Of a DNA stretch of 64,000 nt, positions 1,815-56,696 are shown in pieces. Position numbers and translations under genes: made by a program. The DNA is from Tetramitus jugosus (Eukaryota; Heterolobosea; Eutetramitea; Acrasida; Vahlkampfiidae): assembly GCA_937625935.1 (NCBI GenBank), contig OW569379.1, positions 124,001-188,000 on the forward strand, given 5' to 3'. Every line of letters starts with the position of its first letter. Position 1 is the first letter of the stretch. Under the pieces are notes generated by a model. The model was not told the DNA's origin. It saw nothing but the letters and a program-made list of their open reading frames with translations, and searched no databases.

Positions 1815-3968
1815 TTACAGGGATGCCAGAGATGTCCTATTCCTAATATTTATCATTTGGATAAATCCATTCGACTGAAGCAGGCATGCCAAACTAACTC
1901 GCAAAAGCATATGAAGGGATGATTGCTTGCTCCGGAGAGCTGAGGATGTAACTGTTGAAGGTATAGTTCTGTGTTTCACCATCCATGCATAACGATCCAA
2001 CTGTTGCGAGCTACTTAGCAGTTGTTCCAATATTCGATTGACTTTGAATTGAGATCCTCTGTAGCGAGAAATGAGGTGACACAAGGAAACAGTTTGCATG
2101 ATATATTTCCGTGTGGCATATGTTAGAACGGAGCGTAAGCTCTTATCATTTCTTTCCAGGAGCAAGTTTTTGCGTTTGTCAATCTCACTGGCGAGCATGT
2201 GAGCAGCATCGACTAATGTGTATTTGATGATACCATTAATTACAAGTTCATCAAACGTACGGTCAGAGATCGTGGCCATCAGAGGATAGTGCACATCTGA
2301 TCGCTCGATAAAGCGTGATATGACAGTAGCGAGAATGCTGTTACTACTGTTTGACATTGAGATATTGTTCAGTGTGTCCAATGAACCATTCGTCTTCAAC
2401 AAGATTTGATAGAAAGAATCCATAAGTCTAACTTGTGTGCGAATCAAAGACTCTTGACTCTCATATTCTTCGTCTGTGTCGTACAAGACGATTTGCAAGT
2501 TGGAAATATTGGATTTTATCGATATGGCGATCGTGGACATGTACGATAGTATATCTTTCCTAACAAATGATTCATATAGTGCGGGAGAGCTAGATTGAAT
2601 TTGAGGCAGTACCAGTGCAGACATATTCGCTAGATGTCTCATCATTTGGTACAATCTCTTCATCGTTCGTACGTCCGATTGTGTAGCAGTATGTTCGGTC
2701 AATATTCGTATCGACGCAAACATATCACTTATCAACTCTAATAGTTGCTCAGACTCCTCCTGCTTCATCAAAGAATCCAAACTAAATATCGATTTCCTAC
2801 TTTTCTTGTTCTTCTTTTTCTTCTTGTTCTTCTTTCCTTTCGTGTCTGTTGTAGCTTTGCTCGCTTGTTCTCGCATAATTCTCAACTTCTTCGCAAAAGA
2901 TTTCACATCTCCATCATTAAATAGTTCATGCGTCATTACTAATGTTCCATAAACATTCGATATAATTCTGCTAATATTACCCGCTTCGCTCACATTCGTC
3001 ACTTTCTTAATCAAACTTGTAATACACCTCGAGCAAGAACGTACGCTGTTGATGCACAACATGACTCCAATGGATGCATCTTCGGCCCTCGAAGGTATCT
3101 GCTCCTCAATTTGTGGCATTTCACTTCGGGTTAAGAATTCCACTGGCTCCAACAGTGCCACCCACTCATAATCCTTTGACCAATCTTGCTTGTACTTGAT
3201 CATTGTCTTTTTGGCTATTTTCCTCTTTTCTGTATCGAAACTGTCATTTAACACTGGTAAATAAAAGGCACGGATGGCCCATAACCTCACACTCGTATTC
3301 AACAAGGGGAAAACCTTCTCCAGTGCTTCTAGAATAAACTTTTGTAACTTGGTTACCAACGATGCAAAATAACAATTAAAAAACACTTGGAGCGAGTACA
3401 AGTTTGAAGTCGCTTGAATCGAACTACCTCCACTCTCCCACTCTCCATTCCTTCTCTTCTTGTAACTATCGTCATCGTCTCCATTCCCATGTTCACTATC
3501 CATACTCTGCATCTGACATATCGGAATCACAATTCTGTTCAAAAACTCAAACAACTCACTGCCTGACTGTGCAAACGACAAGGACGACGATTTGGAGGCC
3601 ACAGCAGAAGCAAAATGCTCTTGCAACAACTGAATAAACTCCATTGTAAATGAACTGCACGGTTCCACATCCTCCTTCATTTCCATAAACGGTAAAACTA
3701 ACTGTTCAATCATAATTTGTTGAGTCACTGGATCCACTCTCTCTCGCATCAACAAAAAATCATCTTCGCTCTCTTCATCTGCACCCTTACGGTTATTTTC
3801 ATCCAAAGTCATCTCTCGATCATGAGTCATTTGCATGACGAGTTGCATTTGAATTTGAGCAACAAGAGATTGAAACGGAATGGCCAAGCACTTCTCACAT
3901 AGCTTATCACATTGAACAAACAATTGTTTGATCTCTTTGGGTAATACTAATTTGGAGTCGGATGACAT
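1815..3968 (-). CDS. Large helical protein of unknown function
   Basis: A 717-residue single-exon protein read from the ATG at 3968; the longer frame begins at a GTG three codons upstream, so the ATG is preferred. The sequence is mostly amphipathic helix with many Leu/Ile heptads, an acidic stretch near residue 65 (EESEDD) and one lysine-rich tract near residue 385 (KKNKKKKKNKK) that resembles a nuclear or nucleolar signal. No signal peptide or membrane segment is seen. The look is that of a HEAT-like or tethering-complex scaffold, but no family motif is recognised and I assign no function. It lies 98 bp downstream of the phospholipase D gene on the same strand. Confidence 0.7.
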   Translation of the reverse strand: MSSDSKLVLPKEIKQLFVQCDKLCEKCLAIPFQSLVAQIQMQLVMQMTHDREMTLDENNRKGADEESEDDFLLMRERVDPVTQQIMIEQLVLPFMEMKEDVEPCSSFTMEFIQLLQEHFASAVASKSSSLSFAQSGSELFEFLNRIVIPICQMQSMDSEHGNGDDDDSYKKRRNGEWESGGSSIQATSNLYSLQVFFNCYFASLVTKLQKFILEALEKVFPLLNTSVRLWAIRAFYLPVLNDSFDTEKRKIAKKTMIKYKQDWSKDYEWVALLEPVEFLTRSEMPQIEEQIPSRAEDASIGVMLCINSVRSCSRCITSLIKKVTNVSEAGNISRIISNVYGTLVMTHELFNDGDVKSFAKKLRIMREQASKATTDTKGKKNKKKKKNKKSRKSIFSLDSLMKQEESEQLLELISDMFASIRILTEHTATQSDVRTMKRLYQMMRHLANMSALVLPQIQSSSPALYESFVRKDILSYMSTIAISIKSNISNLQIVLYDTDEEYESQESLIRTQVRLMDSFYQILLKTNGSLDTLNNISMSNSSNSILATVISRFIERSDVHYPLMATISDRTFDELVINGIIKYTLVDAAHMLASEIDKRKNLLLERNDKSLRSVLTYATRKYIMQTVSLCHLISRYRGSQFKVNRILEQLLSSSQQLDRYAWMVKHRTIPSTVTSSALRSKQSSLHMLLRVSLACLLQSNGFIQMINIRNRTSLASL

Positions 3969-4066
3969 GTTGAGCACATCAAAATGAAGAATGATCGATT
4001 TGTGTGTTTGAAAAGTTGTGAATTCAAGTTTTGAAAGGAAGGATTTATTTCTTTGCCGAGAGCCGA

Positions 4067-7000
4067 TCAGAAGAAAACAGATTCATCCACGACTTTGAGT
4101 CTTGTGTCCTTTTTGAACTGGTCGTGAATCAACCAGTCTCTCGGGTATAAGACAGTGTGTCCAATGATCTGATTCATGCGCTTTTTGTCCTCTTCTGTTG
4201 CTTTGAAAGTTCCCTCTTTTACACCCTTCACGTAATTCTCCATGTCGTGTTTGTACTCTGCCAGTGTCACATGTCTCTTGGATGGATAGTGAGGAAATAT
4301 TTGTTCATAGAGAGCTGAATTTTGTTTTGCTCTCTCCACCGCTGCGTGAAACACTGCATTCGATGTTGGATCCTTGGATTGAGCGTAGAACATGTCCGTT
4401 TTCGATATGTTTTTGTGGGCAGGTGCTGCAATACGAAGAGCTGCCAACCGATTCAATGTTGGATCCCCCATAAAGTGCTCTCTCCATAGCTTCTTACGCA
4501 TTCTCTTTATACTTTTGCCTGTTTTGACTCGATGACCGTTGAAAATGGACATTGTGGTGTCGAGATCCTCGACTATAACCGCAATTTCACTGTCTCGACT
4601 TCCAATGAGAGATCTGTCATTGATATTGGCAGAACCAATGACTAAAGTACGGTCATCAGTAATCAATACTTTTGCATGAACATAAATTTGACTAAAGTGA
4701 GGAACGCCATGGATGAATCCTTTCTGTGCGAGAGAAAAGAAGACAATATAATCTCCAATATTGGCATGAGGGAATTGTTGCTGCAAAGTGGCAAATATTC
4801 CTTCGATCGTTGCTCGTTGCCATTTCATCACTTGGTGCGTCGATGGATCATAAATATCTCCACTGTGATGCATGGGAAGAACAACAATAACTCTGAAAAC
4901 TTCATTGTTGGTAATGGCTTTTGAGATACGGGCTATGATAGCCTCAGCCACACCATTTTCGACCTTATCACTATACATGGTTTTGCTAATAAAGTACTGA
5001 TTTTCAATATAAACGTAGTATTGTGCGTTACGAATGACCTCAACAATGGCTCTATGTATACTCTGTTCTGTTCTCAATGAACCTGACCAGAGAGACAAGG
5101 AACGGAGCGCTTGAACTCTCACGTGGGTCATTGGAACATCTTCGAGATAAAACTGCAGATTGGGCAAGGGTTCGCTCAGTGTTAGAGACTTGCGGTAGTA
5201 ATTGACTTCCTCAATGGCTTGGTCTCCACGATCGACTCGATTGTGATGATTCCAGCGAGAAATAAAATTAGAGGCAACATCGGATGCAATCGTACCTGCC
5301 AATACACAGTGAACATCATGCCATGGCAAACGGGGAAACATGTCTCGATCTAGCTGGTCACGAAATGCATCAGTCTTCAGTTTCATTGGCTTACCGGAGC
5401 CCAATCTAGCCAAAGTATCGTTTGTATAATCCATTCCAGGCCACTTGGTATGCAAGTGATTGTAGTCCGATAATGAATGATTGTGATTGTCCCACCTGCC
5501 CAATGCAATATCTAACCCTCCAACAAAAGCAATGGTTTGATCCACGACAATGATTTTTTGATGGTGAGACCACGAGAAGGGAAGATTTCTCGGATGGACA
5601 ATACATCTAATGTTTGGATGCAAATCAACTAGATGCTGCCGAATCATGTTTGTACTGAGATTCATTCCAGCCATGGCAAACTCGTGCCACATGATGATGT
5701 ATATCTCAACATTTTGTTTTGCAATTGCTAATAATATGTTGTCCAATCGGTAATCTGCCATATCTTCGTCGGAATGACTGTCTCGTCTCAGATATATAAA
5801 TGGATTGACTGACCACCCAGCAATAAACACTTGTTTCTTGGCTTTGAGTAACATCTTGGACATCATGGCATATGTTTCCTCTCCGTCAATCAGTGGATGG
5901 AACCATGTTTGATCAGCGGACCTCATTGGAGAGAACGCATCAAATCGATTATCAATCTGTGAAACAAAGTACAAGAGAAGGCACATTAAACAAAGACGAC
6001 AAACGTCGATATTCTCTGCCATATACCGTGTACACTTGGATCCGAGTTGTATAGTGAACGTGTTGCCCTCTGTAAAAATATTCTTGATTTTGTTGATGGG
6101 AATTTCTCGTTGGATGTGTCTTGTGTTTGGATCACAGTGGAAGATACTACCATCCCTGATCTCGACCCATGCCACCTTAGAATCACATTGCATGATTGCA
6201 CCTTGGTGGAATCGATCTGGTCTGTGCAGAAACTCGGAGACATCTTGAGCCACATTCTGATAAAAAATGTAGTCATAGAGACCCAATCCCTCAGCCAAGT
6301 GCCGGTTCATTTTGGAAACGGCCACATAGTTCTCAAAGTTCATTTCAGGTACGTGGAAGAAGAATCGTTCCAATAGCGCCTCGATATCCATATCAGACAA
6401 TGTGATACATGGGTTATTGTCGACAGCACCAGGGTCAAACACTGGTGCATTCTGGTCTTGGTATGTTGGTGCTGCCATCATTTGTTGTTGAGCAGCTCCT
6501 GATCCATTGATTTCAATGTCTGGATTGTCTCTTCTCACATTGACCAAGCTTCGCATCTTTACCAGGCTCACCTCCTCACTGACCACATCACCTCGTGTTC
6601 TCAGTGTCTGCAACGGTGTGCTCAATCTGAGGACACCAATGCTGTTCAAGATGCGAATGTACTGTCGCATTTCATCCTTGGTCAACACGCCGTCTCCATT
6701 CAGGTCATACAGCCGAAAAGACAGAGCCAACTTTTCTTCAAAGGTACCATGCACCGCACAGCTCGTTGCTAAAGCTAATTCAGTGAAACTAACGTAGCCA
6801 TCACCATCTGTGTTGACAGCATTGAACACGGCATCCAAAATGAATTCATGTGCCGGTGTGAATTGAAATTGAGGATTGTTCATGAGCAATTTTCGGAAGA
6901 AAATGTGTCTACAATCCTCTCTGGTGGCCACCAAGCGATTTGGATCGGAACAGTGACCCGCAAACAGAATCTTCATAATTTTCAGCTCCACTGGTGAAAA

Positions 7001-7180
7001 ATGAGTCTGGGAAGTCAATAACTGCAGATCAAACTCACCTTGTTTTTTGCTGTCCTCTGGATAGGCAACAACAAGGCGTTGTTTGGAACTTTTTCGACGA
7101 TGGAGGTGATGGTGGACTGATACTTTGTTTCGAACCGTTCGTTTCGTTCTCTTTAGCTCATAGGTAATTTTGTTGCCCAT
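4067..7180 (-). CDS. EF-hand phospholipase D with predicted N-myristoylation
   Basis: The 1037-residue protein carries both catalytic HxKxxxxD motifs of phospholipase D: HHQKIIVVD near residue 540 and HAKVLITDD near residue 836, each followed by the usual Gly-Gly or Gly-Ser-Ala-Asn block. Such enzymes hydrolyse phosphatidylcholine to phosphatidic acid and choline. Two canonical EF-hands precede them (NTDGDGYVSFTE near 120 and DLNGDGVLTKDE near 158), followed by a PH-like region near 340-400. The longer frame opens with a TTG; the first ATG, at 7180, gives MGNKIT, which fits the myristoylation consensus with Gly2 and Thr6. Calcium control and membrane anchoring are inferred from these motifs. 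Catalytic residues are intact, so an active enzyme is expected. Confidence 0.92.
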   Translation of the reverse strand: MGNKITYELKRTKRTVRNKVSVHHHLHRRKSSKQRLVVAYPEDSKKQGEFDLQLLTSQTHFSPVELKIMKILFAGHCSDPNRLVATREDCRHIFFRKLLMNNPQFQFTPAHEFILDAVFNAVNTDGDGYVSFTELALATSCAVHGTFEEKLALSFRLYDLNGDGVLTKDEMRQYIRILNSIGVLRLSTPLQTLRTRGDVVSEEVSLVKMRSLVNVRRDNPDIEINGSGAAQQQMMAAPTYQDQNAPVFDPGAVDNNPCITLSDMDIEALLERFFFHVPEMNFENYVAVSKMNRHLAEGLGLYDYIFYQNVAQDVSEFLHRPDRFHQGAIMQCDSKVAWVEIRDGSIFHCDPNTRHIQREIPINKIKNIFTEGNTFTIQLGSKCTRYMAENIDVCRLCLMCLLLYFVSQIDNRFDAFSPMRSADQTWFHPLIDGEETYAMMSKMLLKAKKQVFIAGWSVNPFIYLRRDSHSDEDMADYRLDNILLAIAKQNVEIYIIMWHEFAMAGMNLSTNMIRQHLVDLHPNIRCIVHPRNLPFSWSHHQKIIVVDQTIAFVGGLDIALGRWDNHNHSLSDYNHLHTKWPGMDYTNDTLARLGSGKPMKLKTDAFRDQLDRDMFPRLPWHDVHCVLAGTIASDVASNFISRWNHHNRVDRGDQAIEEVNYYRKSLTLSEPLPNLQFYLEDVPMTHVRVQALRSLSLWSGSLRTEQSIHRAIVEVIRNAQYYVYIENQYFISKTMYSDKVENGVAEAIIARISKAITNNEVFRVIVVLPMHHSGDIYDPSTHQVMKWQRATIEGIFATLQQQFPHANIGDYIVFFSLAQKGFIHGVPHFSQIYVHAKVLITDDRTLVIGSANINDRSLIGSRDSEIAVIVEDLDTTMSIFNGHRVKTGKSIKRMRKKLWREHFMGDPTLNRLAALRIAAPAHKNISKTDMFYAQSKDPTSNAVFHAAVERAKQNSALYEQIFPHYPSKRHVTLAEYKHDMENYVKGVKEGTFKATEEDKKRMNQIIGHTVLYPRDWLIHDQFKKDTRLKVVDESVFF

Positions 7181-7447
7181 TTTCAAGTGTCACCTCTTCT
7201 TGTTCTTCTTTGTTGTCTTCTGGTTGCTTGCTGGAACAGAACAGAAGTGAAATCAACGACCCGATCATTGAATCAGCAGATCTCTCCTCTTTCGGTTGAT
7301 GTGTCGACTGTTCCTCGGAATATTTACTAAATTTATCCAAGGCCGGATCCGATAAAAAAATACGCGTATTTTGTTCCGATCCTGATGTCTTACAATGGTA
7401 CCATAAAAATGACCTTGCCAAAAGTCTGATACTGAGAGATAGATTTC

Positions 7448-8488
7448 TCATAGTATCGTACAACCACCTCTCTTTGTTGGTATAATGTATTCTGCAGCAG
7501 GACGTCGATTCCTTATTTGAATCACAGCACATTGAAATGTTTCAGTGACATTTCGTTTCTCCCGCACCGAAAGATCAATCCACGGTACACTCCACTTTTT
7601 TGCAAAGGACTCAATGTGTTCATATGGTGTTGTCACACTACACTCACTACTGTCATCCACACTCACACAACTGTCATCGACTGCACCATGGTAAGAAGAT
7701 GAATAGTGATAATCACTGGTGGTGTGTTCAGATGACTTGTTTGCAGCCAACACAATCGCAGGTCTCATCATATCTCTCTTCACAGAACTCATTAACCAGT
7801 GCATTGTTTGTTCAACTTGATGAAACGATTGTTCAAAATCTGTAATGTCAAACATGATGATAAAACCGTCGGCTTCTCTCAGTGCTCTATCTCTAATCTC
7901 TGCATATTGACTGTCATCTTCACCACTCGTATTGGGAGCATGATGATGATGGTGATGATGATGAATATTATTATTAGAATTGTCTTGTTGGATGACAAGA
8001 CCACATAAATCAATCAACTCCAAGTGACATATTCCCTCTTCCATTCTCATTCGCGTCCGGAACCGATTCATCATATTTCTCTTCTTTTTACTACCATTCA
8101 CTCCATTCTTCCTCTTGTTGTTATTCAACTGTTGTTGTTGTTGTTGTAATGATGATGATGAATAATTTCTCATTCTTGCACCACCACTACCACCACCATC
8201 CATCATCAAAATATTAGATGTCGTAGTAGTTGTTGGACTAGTGGCAGCACTCGTACTCGCCGCATAAAAATCACTTACAAATCGATTACAAACAAACTGA
8301 TAACAGAGACTTGTTTTGCCAGAGTAACATGGACCGAGTATGACAATACGATAATCTTCTACTTGGTCGAATATGGGTTCAGGACCGAGACATGTCGTTA
8401 CACATGGACTATGATGGTGGTGATGACGATGATGATGGTGATGGTGATGGGTGTTGTTGCTATGGTTGGACATGAATGGTGTTTCCAT
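7448..8488 (-). CDS. Ras-like small GTPase with His/Asn-rich inserts and CaaX box
   Basis: This 346-residue protein has a Ras-type P-loop (GPCYSGKTS near residue 53), a DxxG switch II (DLCG near 162), a degenerate G4 motif NKSS in place of NKxD near 249, and a plausible G5 stretch (DLSVREKRN). It ends in CTIL, a CaaX box whose final Leu favours geranylgeranylation, so a membrane-bound GTPase is inferred. It is about twice the usual Ras length because of a His-rich N-terminus and Asn/Gln/His insertions between P-loop and switch II. The frame opens at a GTG 20 codons upstream; the ATG at 8488 is chosen. Loss of the G4 Asp may weaken guanine specificity. Confidence 0.8.
   Translation of the reverse strand: METPFMSNHSNNTHHHHHHHRHHHHHSPCVTTCLGPEPIFDQVEDYRIVILGPCYSGKTSLCYQFVCNRFVSDFYAASTSAATSPTTTTTSNILMMDGGGSGGARMRNYSSSSLQQQQQQLNNNKRKNGVNGSKKKRNMMNRFRTRMRMEEGICHLELIDLCGLVIQQDNSNNNIHHHHHHHHAPNTSGEDDSQYAEIRDRALREADGFIIMFDITDFEQSFHQVEQTMHWLMSSVKRDMMRPAIVLAANKSSEHTTSDYHYSSSYHGAVDDSCVSVDDSSECSVTTPYEHIESFAKKWSVPWIDLSVREKRNVTETFQCAVIQIRNRRPAAEYIIPTKRGGCTIL
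8407..8455 (-). repeat. Histidine-codon microsatellite
   Basis: An imperfect CAT/CAC trinucleotide run (read on the minus strand) codes the poly-His segment at the N-terminus of the Ras-like GTPase. Similar runs recur at 7938-7965 in the same gene and at about 11556-11577 in the RCC1 gene, so His-tract expansion seems common in this genome. Confidence 0.7.
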
Positions 8489-51674: not shown

Positions 51675-51681
51675 GCAATTT
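51675..51681 (+). repeat. Candidate target-site duplication, left (GCAATTT)
   Basis: GCAATTT directly precedes the G-run that starts the element at 51682. The same seven bases lie at 56671-56677, just past the other end. Removing the element and one copy leaves a continuous GTGCGTGCAATTTGCAAG junction. Confidence 0.6.
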
Positions 51682-51692
51682 GGGGGGGGTCA
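51682..51692 (+). repeat. Left terminal inverted repeat (G8TCA)
   Basis: GGGGGGGGTCA, the exact inverse of 56658-56668. Past this the ends share TGTGA after a five-base insertion on the left (TCA-CGAGA-TGTGA against TCA-TGTGA). Runs of eight G are rare in this AT-rich sequence. Confidence 0.65.
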
Positions 51693-51949
51693 CGAGATGT
51701 GAATTACTGTGGTTTCTGCGTGAAGAGAAGTGAAGAAAGCAACATACTAGTAATTGTGATTGCATCAACAATAATTAATGGACCGATTGAATTCGCAGCA
51801 CGTAAAGGGTATATGTTACTGTCATTGATTAGTTGCGTGGTCGTACGTGTGGACCGTATCTTCGAATCTAGTCCATTTTCCCGTGAGGTTGTCGTGTTCA
51901 CAGCACTTGACGCTCGTCACGACAAGCGAAAAAACCAAAAACCACAACG

Positions 51950-54900
51950 ATGAGTGATGATGTGCCACAATACATATGTTCAAACCTTTTGCATCACAGT
52001 GACGCGAAGCAGTACTACAGTTTGAACAGAATGGTATGTTTGAAGTGTGAACAAGACCGACTGAAGACAGGAAAGAGCCATCAACCATATGGATTGAAGA
52101 AATATTGTGAGGAGTGCAAGAAGTATATATCTGCATGTAACTTTTCAAGACCTGATCGACACAAGTGCTTCAAGAAGCCAGCAGTTCTTGTTGATGAATC
52201 ATCCAGCATTCCACTTCAGTCAATGGATGACACCACACGACATGAGAACAAGTACGATTACTTGAAAGAATTTCTGCAGCATGTGAAGGATGAGGTATCA
52301 CAGCACCAATTTGTGTTGTGGTCTGGCTTCAAAACCAAGTACATAGATCTGATAACATCACCCATTTGGAATACAACTGACCTGAGAAATACTATAACGA
52401 AGAATACTCTACTAGGAGTTGACATTACATTTCTGCTGTATGACGGAATGTACTATGTGTGTCACAGAACAGTTTCTGCAGAATTTATCTCAGCTGTTGT
52501 CAAGTCTCTCGTAAATATGCCTGCAGTGGGCAGTGGAAGCGATCACAGTCACAACTGTAGTCACACTGATGTAGTACATGTAAAAGTTGATCAGAGTAAC
52601 AGCATAACTCAGAAGGAATGTCCTGGGTTCACACCATCTAAATTTGCCAAACAGTATTGCAGTGTACATAGCTGTTTGGTATTAATGACCGGAGTGATAG
52701 CTACTCAAATAAATAGCACAGATCAGTATAGATCTAAGTGGTGTAAGATGTTCGTGACTGGAAAGCAACAGACTTGTTCAATGTGCTCGAGTGCAAAGAA
52801 GACTCTTGATCAACGCGGTACAAGAGCTCAGAATGCAGTCGACACTGGAAGCATCATGGGACGAAATGCATACTCTACAAACACCACGGCACTGATGCTA
52901 GCTAAGGTTAATGCTTTACAATCAAGTTTGTATAGTGCTAATCGTAAGGTCAAAGAGTTGCAAGATGAGGTTGATCAATTATTTCATCTGAATGCAGATG
53001 GCAAAGATGTTGATCAAAAGAAGCAATTGTTTCTCAAGGTGTGTAAAGCACTACACCAAGCTGATGGATATCCATTCTTCTTCCAGCTGTATGAGAGTCA
53101 AATGGACAACTTTGTCAAGGAGACCCGGTTCCTCCACAGATATGATGATACAATTAAGCACTTCTGGAAACATTTTAGACATGTTGCTGGACCAAAGGCT
53201 ATTGATGTTCTCAGAGGAGTACAGAGTGAGAATGCAGGTTTGGAGTACAATATGTTCATTCCAAGTAATAGTACATTGGATAGAATAGAGGATATTGGAT
53301 CGTATGGAGCTCCTCCTCAACTGAGAGTTGACGAGATACACATTTTATTAGAAGATCACGTGAAACAGACTGGTTGCAAAGAATACATCATCAGCTTTGA
53401 TGGCATTATAGTTATACCTAGGTACAAATACTCTGAAGGTTTAGACAAGGTACTTGGAGGAGAGGTTGCTCTTACCCCAGAAGAATATGTATCGCGGTCA
53501 AAAGAAGATCTGGATGATGATCTTGGGAACGAAGTTATTCAGTTTTTGATTCACAGTATTGACGGAGATGTCACAATACGTGCAGGTCATTGGGTGAAGC
53601 CTGACAAGTCAAATGGTGTGAAGTTTATCACATCAAAACTCAAAACTCTTGTAGAGTTGTTCTATAAGAAGGATGTATGTGAGTTAATTGCATCCTGCAG
53701 TGATGGCGATTTATGTAACGATGCAGTGCAGAGTTATATGGAGAAGTATATGAGAGACAAGTATGGTACTCCGTGGTTTCACTTGTTTGACTTCAGCCAT
53801 CTACTGAAGGCTCTGAGAAATGCCCTGCTGAACAGAGTGCTGGAACCTGGTGGACACCAGATACATATGAATTTACTGATTGATCTGTGTAATAAGAGTC
53901 CTAGTGATGGAGTTTTAAGCTTTATCAAAGACAGTTGGTTGAATCCTCCAGACATCATGAAAATGCTTCCATGTTTAGAGATCACATCAGAGAGAGTGCA
54001 AACAGCACTTAAGAGCTTACCAGAAGATATGTACTCTGAGCAAGAACGCAGCTCAGCGCTCGAGCTATCACAATACTTGGGTCAAATCCGAAGCTTGTAT
54101 GATTGCTTTATGGATGTAGACATGCTTCAAGACAAAGCTCTTACACGATTGTATGGTAAATCCAAACCAAGTGAGACAGTCACAGAGGACAGTCTAATGA
54201 GTTATATATGTGGGTGGAATGCATCAGAAAAATCTGCTCAGTTTAAGCTGGCATCACAGACCAGTCGCCATGTTACCACTACTGTCAATAATTTGTACAA
54301 GCTTGTACAATATCTGAATGAGAGACAGGTATCATACTACCTAAAGAGATCGGCATTGTCAACGCTCGCAGTTGAGCTGACATTTTGTGTCACTCGTGGG
54401 ATGCAAGCGTATGTAACTGCTTGCGAATTTAGTACACTATCTGGTAGATCAGAGTGGGATCAACGTATAATTTGTACAGATCCAACAATTCGTCGATGGT
54501 CTTTACCATCAGATGTCCAACAACCATCCAAGTACTACAACGCTTGTATTATACACTATGATACCATGCCAGCTCTGAAACCAAAGAATGATTCCAAAGA
54601 GAAGAGACTGTTGCATTCCGACGATGTAATGAAGGACATGAGATTGAAACTTGCCTCACAGGGAGAGACTACAGGTCACAAGAAAACCAGATCACACTGC
54701 AACACTAGTCACAAGAAGCACTGGTTTCAGTGTGGACAGTGCAATCGACGACCTTATCATTATCCAACAGCTCTTGAAACTCACCTAGGGAAAGTACATA
54801 AGTTGTCTACAGAAGCAGCTGCAGCAGTAGTTAAAGACATGAAGGTCGCAATTATGAAAGAAATCATTGCAGAGCGATCTACTGAACGTAGACAGGCTGC

Positions 54901-56518
54901 TCAAAATGCAGGGATTAGAGAGCCTGCTATAGAGGATGGTGTCGTCACTGAATGGACAGATGAGCATGAGTTGAACTTATTAGACGCTCTAGTCAGAAGC
55001 CACGAAGAACCTACTGAAGAGAGCGATAAATCCATCAGTAATGCTGCAGGAGACAACATATTTCCCATCAGTGACGAGCTGTTAGACTATGTCAAGGACC
55101 TAGAAGACATATTCCAGTTTGTACAGATGGAGATTACTGGTGAGTTAAGTACTACAGATTCGTCCCAGACAGAATTCGCTTTGGATCAGACAAAGCCAGT
55201 GTTGGTATCTTTTGTAGATTGTGAAACAATCAACCTACAGAAATACCCTCACGGTGGTCCATGTGAGATTGCTGTACGAACGGAAGGTATGCCACCAGGT
55301 ACGATACTTTGTACTAGGTTGAATCCATTCCCATTAAGCACATCTTTCTGGAGTGATGACAGTATTTCGATACATGGTATTACACCAGAAGATGTAATTG
55401 GGCAGCCTTTGCTTGAGAAAGGTATTCAGGCCTTCTACAGATTAGTCACTTGTGACAGGAGATGTAGAGCCATCTGTGTTGCTTTCAACTCAGCATTCGA
55501 TGATTCCAGGATTACAAGTTGTAGTGAACTGGTACCAGAGTTTGATGAGTATGATGTTGTATGGGTGGATGCTAGGAAGCTTATTGGGGAAGAGTTTGTG
55601 TGTGATGATGAAGGTAGGATCATTGACAGGGTTGGCAAGCTTGCGGATATATTCAATCACCGACTAAAGCAGGTAGAACAGATAGATGAGTCAAAGATCC
55701 ATGGTGCTAGGTATGATACACATATGATGTACAGTCTGTTGGTACATAAGTACGGATCTGAAGAGAAGGTCAGAGAAGAAGTGATTAAACTTTCTCGTCA
55801 GAGGAAAGGTGTTGGATGTAACTGTACTGGTGGATGTGTATCATGCTCTTGTACTGTGGAAGGTTCTGCTGGCTGTACATTAGCCTGCGACTGCTTTGGA
55901 TGTGCTAACCCAATTCAACGTCGTGCTGCGTATGATCTTCTAGTGACGTTTGAAGATTTGACGGAAACAGCAATCAATAAGATGAAGAAGAATGAGCTGA
56001 AGATCATGCTGCATCACAGGAATTACGATATTCGTGGTACTAAGGACGATCTGAAATCTAGATTGTTGTCTGTTTTGAAAGGCAGTGGTGACTCAGTTCT
56101 GAAGTTTGGAAATAAGCAACCAGTGATTACAGATGATCAGGAATTGACCAGAGAGATGGTCTTGAAGATGTCTAAAGATGTACTGATTACTCAACTCTCG
56201 AAGAGATATAATGTTAGTGCGAACAAACATTCAACTGTTGGCGCTCTCATATATAAACTGTTGCAGGCAGCAAAGCTTGATCAAGAAGGAGATGAAGTGA
56301 TGACTGCGCCTAGGAAGAAGAAAAGAAACGCAAAGAGCAGCAAGCTGTCTACACAACCTTCTGTCTCTTCCAAGAAGAGAAAGTCTCCACCTGACAAAGA
56401 CTCTCAACAACCAACAAAGAAGAAGAAAGTTTCCACTAGTAAGAAACGTGATGCAGATGTATTAGACAGCTCTCAAGCATCTCCACAGAAACGAACTAAG
56501 AAGCATGATGCTTTATGA
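51950..56518 (+). CDS. Giant transposase: P-element-like core, C2H2, DEDDh exonuclease, CXC and SAP
   Basis: The 1522-residue protein, one exon, has in order: Cys pairs at 30-75 (CLKC, YCEECKKY), a CSMC cluster near 280, a coiled coil near 318-350, and a core like P-element/THAP9 transposases: SFDG with Asp484, SDGDLCND with Asp585, and HLFDFSHLLKALRN with Asp614. A C2H2 finger lies near 925-950. A full DEDDh exonuclease site follows: Asp1090/Glu1092 in FVDCET, HGIT at 1142, Asp1184 in NSAFDD, and His1251..Asp1256. Then come a CXC-like Cys-rich module (1290-1318), a SAP motif (about 1343-1377) and a basic nuclear tail. The core presumably cuts and joins DNA; the exonuclease may trim ends or gaps, which is inference. 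The third acidic residue of the core was not identified. Confidence 0.75.
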   Translation: MSDDVPQYICSNLLHHSDAKQYYSLNRMVCLKCEQDRLKTGKSHQPYGLKKYCEECKKYISACNFSRPDRHKCFKKPAVLVDESSSIPLQSMDDTTRHENKYDYLKEFLQHVKDEVSQHQFVLWSGFKTKYIDLITSPIWNTTDLRNTITKNTLLGVDITFLLYDGMYYVCHRTVSAEFISAVVKSLVNMPAVGSGSDHSHNCSHTDVVHVKVDQSNSITQKECPGFTPSKFAKQYCSVHSCLVLMTGVIATQINSTDQYRSKWCKMFVTGKQQTCSMCSSAKKTLDQRGTRAQNAVDTGSIMGRNAYSTNTTALMLAKVNALQSSLYSANRKVKELQDEVDQLFHLNADGKDVDQKKQLFLKVCKALHQADGYPFFFQLYESQMDNFVKETRFLHRYDDTIKHFWKHFRHVAGPKAIDVLRGVQSENAGLEYNMFIPSNSTLDRIEDIGSYGAPPQLRVDEIHILLEDHVKQTGCKEYIISFDGIIVIPRYKYSEGLDKVLGGEVALTPEEYVSRSKEDLDDDLGNEVIQFLIHSIDGDVTIRAGHWVKPDKSNGVKFITSKLKTLVELFYKKDVCELIASCSDGDLCNDAVQSYMEKYMRDKYGTPWFHLFDFSHLLKALRNALLNRVLEPGGHQIHMNLLIDLCNKSPSDGVLSFIKDSWLNPPDIMKMLPCLEITSERVQTALKSLPEDMYSEQERSSALELSQYLGQIRSLYDCFMDVDMLQDKALTRLYGKSKPSETVTEDSLMSYICGWNASEKSAQFKLASQTSRHVTTTVNNLYKLVQYLNERQVSYYLKRSALSTLAVELTFCVTRGMQAYVTACEFSTLSGRSEWDQRIICTDPTIRRWSLPSDVQQPSKYYNACIIHYDTMPALKPKNDSKEKRLLHSDDVMKDMRLKLASQGETTGHKKTRSHCNTSHKKHWFQCGQCNRRPYHYPTALETHLGKVHKLSTEAAAAVVKDMKVAIMKEIIAERSTERRQAAQNAGIREPAIEDGVVTEWTDEHELNLLDALVRSHEEPTEESDKSISNAAGDNIFPISDELLDYVKDLEDIFQFVQMEITGELSTTDSSQTEFALDQTKPVLVSFVDCETINLQKYPHGGPCEIAVRTEGMPPGTILCTRLNPFPLSTSFWSDDSISIHGITPEDVIGQPLLEKGIQAFYRLVTCDRRCRAICVAFNSAFDDSRITSCSELVPEFDEYDVVWVDARKLIGEEFVCDDEGRIIDRVGKLADIFNHRLKQVEQIDESKIHGARYDTHMMYSLLVHKYGSEEKVREEVIKLSRQRKGVGCNCTGGCVSCSCTVEGSAGCTLACDCFGCANPIQRRAAYDLLVTFEDLTETAINKMKKNELKIMLHHRNYDIRGTKDDLKSRLLSVLKGSGDSVLKFGNKQPVITDDQELTREMVLKMSKDVLITQLSKRYNVSANKHSTVGALIYKLLQAAKLDQEGDEVMTAPRKKKRNAKSSKLSTQPSVSSKKRKSPPDKDSQQPTKKKKVSTSKKRDADVLDSSQASPQKRTKKHDAL

Positions 56519-56657
56519 TTAACAAGGTATTGATTATTCGAATCATGCAACAACATGAACCGCTCGCAACACACATATCATAACAATAACAGTAGCATAT
56601 GCTACACAGTCAGTTTCAAGTCATTTGCACAACTTTCCTCACTTCTCTATTGTCACA

Positions 56658-56668
56658 TGACCCCCCCC
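56658..56668 (-). repeat. Right terminal inverted repeat (TGAC8)
   Basis: TGACCCCCCCC on the plus strand, the exact reverse complement of 51682-51692. It lies 140 bp after the transposase stop. Confidence 0.65.
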
Positions 56669-56670
56669 TG

Positions 56671-56677
56671 GCAATTT
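56671..56677 (+). repeat. Candidate target-site duplication, right (GCAATTT)
   Basis: GCAATTT, matching 51675-51681, but separated from the C-run by TG. Either the element ends in TG on this side or a short deletion or mismatch occurred at one end. Confidence 0.55.
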
Positions 56678-56696
56678 GCAAGATGATGTTCGTTGA

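Follow-up and report, generated by a model that had tools for sequence, protein, structure and literature searches.

A P-superfamily transposon of Tetramitus jugosus whose single protein joins a transposase to a predicted DEDDh exonuclease

The P, Kolobok and Dada superfamilies of DNA transposons belong to the DxxH group, and for two of them, Kolobok and Dada, the combination of a DDE transposase with a DnaQ-like exonuclease has already been published. KolobokD carries a DDE transposase with DxxH and a DEDDh (DnaQ) exonuclease on one DNA transposon, and its authors proposed that intermediates are degraded from the 3' end (PMC9587614). In Dada, the exonuclease, reported from only two hosts (Laccaria and Ectocarpus), is of the DEDDy type and is inserted between the second D and DxxH; the elements target small RNA genes with duplications of 6-7 bp, and processing of the cleaved 3' ends was proposed (PMC3706591). 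For the Drosophila P transposase, six domains are listed, none of them an exonuclease; the 5' strand is cleaved 17 bp inside the repeat, which leaves 17-nt 3' extensions, and the transposase sites are spaced distinctly at the two ends (PMC7776569). Use of GTP as a cofactor is a further trait of the P superfamily. Here we describe an element of the heterolobosean Tetramitus jugosus, lying in a window of 64,000 nucleotides (the whole stretch analysed; assembly GCA_937625935.1, contig OW569379.1, positions 124,001-188,000), in which a transposase of the P type and a predicted exonuclease occupy one protein.

The window element resembles KolobokD and Dada in its two-enzyme composition, but neither could be retained as its home family. 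Kolobok has TTAA 4-bp duplications and 5'-RR ends, whereas the window family has 8-bp duplications and mostly CA termini, and its fold and Pfam links point to P; Dada is set apart by duplication length and by the type and position of its exonuclease, which in the window protein is DEDDh and follows the catalytic E809. Compared with Drosophila P and THAP9, the protein has no THAP match and possesses additional C2H2, DEDDh exonuclease, CXC-like and SAP-like modules. Unlike the DEDDh exonucleases PolC/DnaQ epsilon, TREX1/2 and RNase T, this version forms part of a transposase encoded by a mobile element. The novelty lies in an exonuclease being paired with the P superfamily, and in how deep that pairing goes; the open-licence literature showed no P-type case, Repbase being outside that scope.

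To our knowledge, the fate of the long 3' single-stranded ends that P elements leave on the donor chromosome is not settled, and an element with its own 3'-5' exonuclease beside a P-type active site would offer a direct, testable handle on it. The current picture of the ancestral P transposase rests largely on animal elements, and would change if the fusion proved ancient.

The element, its protein and its ends

Invariant catalytic residues, predicted folds and relatives support placing the element among the cut-and-paste DNA transposons of the P superfamily, with a single protein that bears a C2H2 finger and a C-terminal DEDDh exonuclease, much as a first-pass annotation made from the letters alone had proposed. 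Across a 17-row alignment, the D-D-E triad is present with DxxH between the second D and the E, as the P superfamily requires. D484, D585 and the core HLFDFSHLLKALRN (residues 611-624) had been located correctly at first pass, and E809 is added here as a further catalytic residue. The predicted fold is likewise P-type, with a helix-turn-helix and an RNase H domain split by a GTP-domain insertion, and 8-bp duplications, also expected of the superfamily, are exact around the window copy (GCAATTTG), an element on contig C14 (AGAAATCT) and another on C41 (GAAAAAGA). Membership comes via relatives, profiles and structure and not from the window protein's own Pfam scores: the P-type RNase H model PF21787 matches seven of the 17 aligned rows at E up to 0.1, exceeds its cut-off of 24.6 bits in P0009 (31.9) and P0010 (36.3), and the matching relatives are tied in by hhalign (1.2e-42). 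The KDZ transposase model did not match the window protein (E up to 1), a comparison made by Pfam scan alone.

The annotated, uninterrupted 1522-codon frame is, judging from its relatives, not a chance frame, because they cover 92-100% of it: P0001 is 98% identical, and P0002-P0004 are 50-52% identical over 92-99% of the length. Within it, the C2H2 finger and all five DEDDh residues (Table 1) were found where the annotation had put them, the latter invariant in every row covering them and set in a predicted fold of the DEDDh family; the two catalytic domains are, by computation, equally conserved. Two further modules held up in part. Nine cysteines at residues 1290-1318 are invariant among the five sequences of alignment A1, but no CXC model matches at E up to 1 and the name rests on pattern; the SAP motif is matched by PF02037 (E 0.00087), but below the cut-off (19.3 against 23.9 bits). 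The scan of the window protein gave no Pfam match at all for the N-terminal Cys-rich region and none to a THAP domain at E up to 1. A single domain dominated every fold search, and the fold evidence does not extend to the N-terminal, CXC-like and SAP-like parts.

The element spans 51683-56670 (4988 bp) between its exact repeats. A blind scan for a duplication with an inverted repeat placed this site only sixth of 108 candidates because CA is absent at the left end; its exact duplication and a right end shared with another copy were the grounds for accepting it as the element boundary. The inverted G8TCA ends announced at first pass are right in substance, the right end reading CAGGGGGGGGTCATG, but the left end, GGGGGGGTCACG, lacks the CA that is present at the window's right end, at the right end of the C18 copy and at both C14 ends, and the window copy's left end is therefore altered or misassembled. 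Over the window, C14 and C41 elements, CA closes five of six ends; the sixth, the window's left, reads GG and is RR-compatible.

A sub-terminal motif, GAAGTGARGAMAG, occurs close to each end of both the window element and the C14 element, at offsets of 45 and 47 from the 5' ends and of 26 and 27 from the 3' ends, a difference of about 20 bp that recalls the end asymmetry of P elements (PMC7776569). When the four ends were shuffled 20,000 times, the motif appeared once among the 80,000 end trials, and in no shuffle did two ends carry it; these chance figures serve as a guide only, the motif having first been read off these same ends. A genome-wide search with the motif pattern gave 11 overlapping matches at six places (reversed control, 0), each falling at an end of one of these elements or in a terminal fragment on C42; the ends of the C41 element lack the motif.

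Copies in the genome and relatives beyond it

A protein search of the genome (G000; 26.3 Mb, 56 contigs), whose copy count is a lower bound, gave 20 matches, grouped by hand into at least eight places, on C36 (the window's contig), C14, C18, C26, C19, C38, C43 and C41. The C14 element, an intact paralogue (51% identity), has terminal repeats that agree at 14/14 positions, CAGGGGGGGGGAGC. The C18 copy is broken, having lost its left part and two internal stretches, but its four remaining protein pieces are 90-98% identical to the window protein, and its right end (CAGGGGGGTCATG) is identical to the window's over 148 bp (100%), so that a further copy with the window's right end, for which the first-pass annotation had called, does exist. 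As queries of the genome, the window's 5' 310 bp found only itself, and its 3' 182 bp only itself and C18. The C26 copy is decayed, with about 90% DNA identity to C14, and those on C19, C38, C43 and C41 are older or more distant; the C41 element ends in CATAGGGGGGACAC and CACAGGGGGGACAC. A lone fragment of about 130 bp (C42:366490; L052 ~4991) is 90% identical to the C14 3' end, and exactly so over the terminal 34 bp that the motif pattern matched. For three of the eight places, a contig end is no more than about 21 kb away (C14:16.6-21.0 kb; C18:518-520 kb of 525 kb; C26:8-11 kb), perhaps reflecting a subtelomeric bias.

Relatives are also lower bounds, two of the three protein searches having covered 7999 and 8000 candidates sharing most words. 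The order transposase, C2H2 finger, DEDDh exonuclease is found again in the C41/P0005 family (hhalign against the window family, 2e-26), P0007, P0008 (source label Pompholyxophrys punicea) and P0013; P0012 apparently stops inside the exonuclease, and P0009-P0011 and P0014 end upstream of it and have no bearing on the order. Reading and alignment of a third family in the genome (C8, C11 and a decayed C3; L057, L058, L060) show a DEDDh-like domain. C11 aligns at each of the five exonuclease residues, and in it RNase_T reaches 23.9 bits against a cut-off of 24; in C8 and C3, RNase_T had no match at E up to 0.1. Pfam evidence that this family is P-type is borderline, since PF21787 exceeds its cut-off of 24.6 bits in the genome search (C8, 26.6; C11, 25.6) and stays under it on the scanned frames (C8, 23.1; C11, 22.0; C3, 18.7). 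That genome search gave five places, including C8, C11, C9 and C18:106970, the last in a frame that reads by eye like a cation-transporting ATPase. The third family joins alignment A8 (E 1.4e-13), and its link to the window family exists only through A8; when the profiles of the two families (A2 for the window, A7 for C8/C11) were compared directly, the probability was 1.2, no link. C11 consists of a 1092-aa frame with a 296-aa frame upstream, and C8 and C3 are each in two frames; the ends put forward for C11 (duplication ATGCAGCC, CAGG termini) ranked first among 142 candidates but are weaker. The cysteine-rich tails of C8 and C11 are PHD-finger-like, with a weak Pfam match in C8 only (15.1 bits against a cut-off of 27).

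Trees were built from 13 transposase rows and 12 exonuclease rows, leaving out P0001, P0009-P0011, P0014 and C8. In both trees, the window clade and the C41 clade appear with support of 98-100; the trees are no proof of a single fusion because the deeper branches are long and without resolution. From the sequences, a single old fusion of exonuclease to transposase is plausible. The bolder proposition that it occurred once, early, before the deep protist lineages split, that it functions in most non-animal P elements and that animal P/THAP9 lost it is one to which we would give rather less than an even chance. If true, the DxxH group would have recruited DnaQ-like exonucleases at least three times, and 3'-end trimming would be a general, unrecognised step in its transposition. 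As for a viral carrier, three IMG/VR scans (P0007, A8, A2) gave 3, 11 and 69 pattern stretches, with no relative by tblastn.

Possible roles of the exonuclease

We rank trimming of 3' ends by the tethered exonuclease first among the readings, at roughly even odds. The protein would bind the repeated sub-terminal motif, a long-spacer 5' end (motif at 45-47) would be paired with a short-spacer 3' end (motif at 26-27), and both ends would be cut by the D484/D585/E809 site, presumably with a stagger that, as in Drosophila P, leaves 3' single-stranded extensions. Ahead of repair by the host, the exonuclease would then trim 3' ends, the likeliest being overhangs of transposon origin on the donor chromosome, whereas 3' ends destined for strand transfer would be shielded in the transpososome; integration would yield the 8-bp duplications. 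By the geometry of the P cut, the donor flanks would bear 3' overhangs of transposon sequence, which a tethered 3'-5' exonuclease would fit, and this fit, together with the 3'-end proposals of the Dada and KolobokD authors, places trimming first. Related two-enzyme transposases in other deep families also suggest that DNA-end trimming is part of these elements' movement.

Several points weigh against this account. A 3'-5' exonuclease could damage the strand-transfer end, fly P functions without one (PMC7776569), and the word exonuclease is absent from the text of that review and of the zebrafish THAP9 paper. The window protein alone is below every Pfam cut-off and is not matched by PF21787 at E up to 1; RNase_T, above its cut-off in relatives, reaches 13.8 bits here against 24 and is also sub-threshold in C14 (19.4) and C11 (23.9). 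The exonuclease model is moderate overall (predicted local distance difference test, pLDDT, 70.5; predicted template modelling score, pTM, 0.62), with ten-residue blocks averaging pLDDT 76-94 from residue 51 to 180. Between C14 and the decayed C26, the exonuclease is weakly constrained (non-synonymous divergence, dN, 0.032; synonymous divergence, dS, 0.049; 173 codons), the values over all 881 codons being 0.032 and 0.092. The window copy, with its CA-less left end, may also have lost mobility.

Other explanations of the fusion were weighed against trimming. The exonuclease might degrade failed or extrachromosomal copies or over-resect donor gaps, as a form of self-control and not a reaction step, and KolobokD has been likened in print to TREX, a degrader of retrotransposition intermediates (PMC9587614); we consider this unlikely, as a self-limiting domain should often be lost in selfish lineages, whereas the catalytic residues are invariant across very diverged rows, and the low copy number (at least eight places) that would suit it has many possible causes. 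Less likely again is an ERI1-like action on host small RNAs or transposon RNA that blunts silencing. Some DEDDh enzymes are indeed RNases, RNase T ranks second among the kinds of match to the domain (7.8e-14) and ERI1 enzymes are matched weakly (0.0015 and worse), but the single best match is the DNA polymerase exonuclease PolC, covalent joining to a transposase places the domain at DNA ends, and the C2H2, SAP-like and CXC-like modules suggest DNA binding. That the domain is a non-catalytic DNA- or RNA-binding fold, Exuperantia-like and kept for targeting, seems very improbable, five invariant catalytic residues being needless for binding. We give equally little credence to the window copy being a domesticated, resident host gene with fossil ends: its CA-less left end and the finding of one intact copy of its subfamily, beside the broken C18 copy, would agree with domestication, but the exact 8-bp duplication around it, the intact C14 paralogue with perfect ends and its own duplication, and the decayed pieces on C18, C26 and C42 speak for a mobile element.

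Feature coordinates and insertion surroundings

Table 1. Features of the window element, in window coordinates; row counts are rows covering the residue in the 17-row alignment.
Feature	Position	Strand	Remarks
Target site duplication, left copy GCAATTTG	51675..51682	.	from sequence; exact match to 56671-56678
Left terminal inverted repeat GGGGGGGTCACGAG	51683..51696	+	without outermost CA
Sub-terminal motif GAAGTGAAGAAAG	51727..51739	+	offset 45 from 5' end; candidate transposase binding site
Single open reading frame, 1522 aa, transposase-exonuclease	51950..56518	+	open frame, relatives, alignment A1
N-terminal Cys-rich region, residues ~8-74	51971..52171	+	from sequence; perhaps a zinc-binding DNA-binding module
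P-type transposase core, residues 395-876	53132..54577	+	split RNase H fold with insertion
D484, first catalytic Asp	53399..53401	+	invariant, 14/14
D585, second catalytic Asp	53702..53704	+	invariant, 17/17
DxxH motif, D614-H617	53789..53800	+	D and H invariant, 17/17
E809, catalytic Glu	54374..54376	+	invariant, 17/17
C2H2 zinc finger, C928, C931, H945, H950	54731..54799	+	invariant, 13/13
DEDDh 3'-5' exonuclease domain, residues 1084-1262	55199..55735	+	predicted; D1090, E1092, D1184, H1251, D1256
Nine-cysteine CXC-like cluster, residues 1290-1318	55817..55903	+	sequence pattern
SAP-like motif, residues 1342-1373	55973..56068	+	PF02037, sub-threshold
Sub-terminal motif GAAGTGAGGAAAG	56633..56645	-	offset 26 from 3' end
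Right terminal inverted repeat, inward CAGGGGGGGGTCATG	56656..56670	-	same terminus on C18 copy
Target site duplication, right copy GCAATTTG	56671..56678	.	exact match to left copy

Two divergent frames flank the window element, one with its ATG (51615, -) at a distance of 67 bp and the other with its ATG (56697, +) at 26 bp. With the element removed, these ATG codons would stand about 85 bp apart; by eye, the frames read like a methyltransferase and an F-box gene. The C14 and C11 elements also lie between divergent starts and the C41 element does not, so that three of four insertions, judged on mechanically called frames, have this setting, too few to claim promoter targeting. The C41 element (L026, reverse strand 3007-7945) has its coding frame broken into 362-aa and 830-aa frames, the related P0005 being one 1161-aa protein, and has, past the transposase stop and before its right end, a second frame of 96 aa. 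This frame encodes a RING-H2 finger (zf-RING_2, 39.4 bits; cut-off 27.3) and, from its sequence, is possible ubiquitin-ligase cargo.
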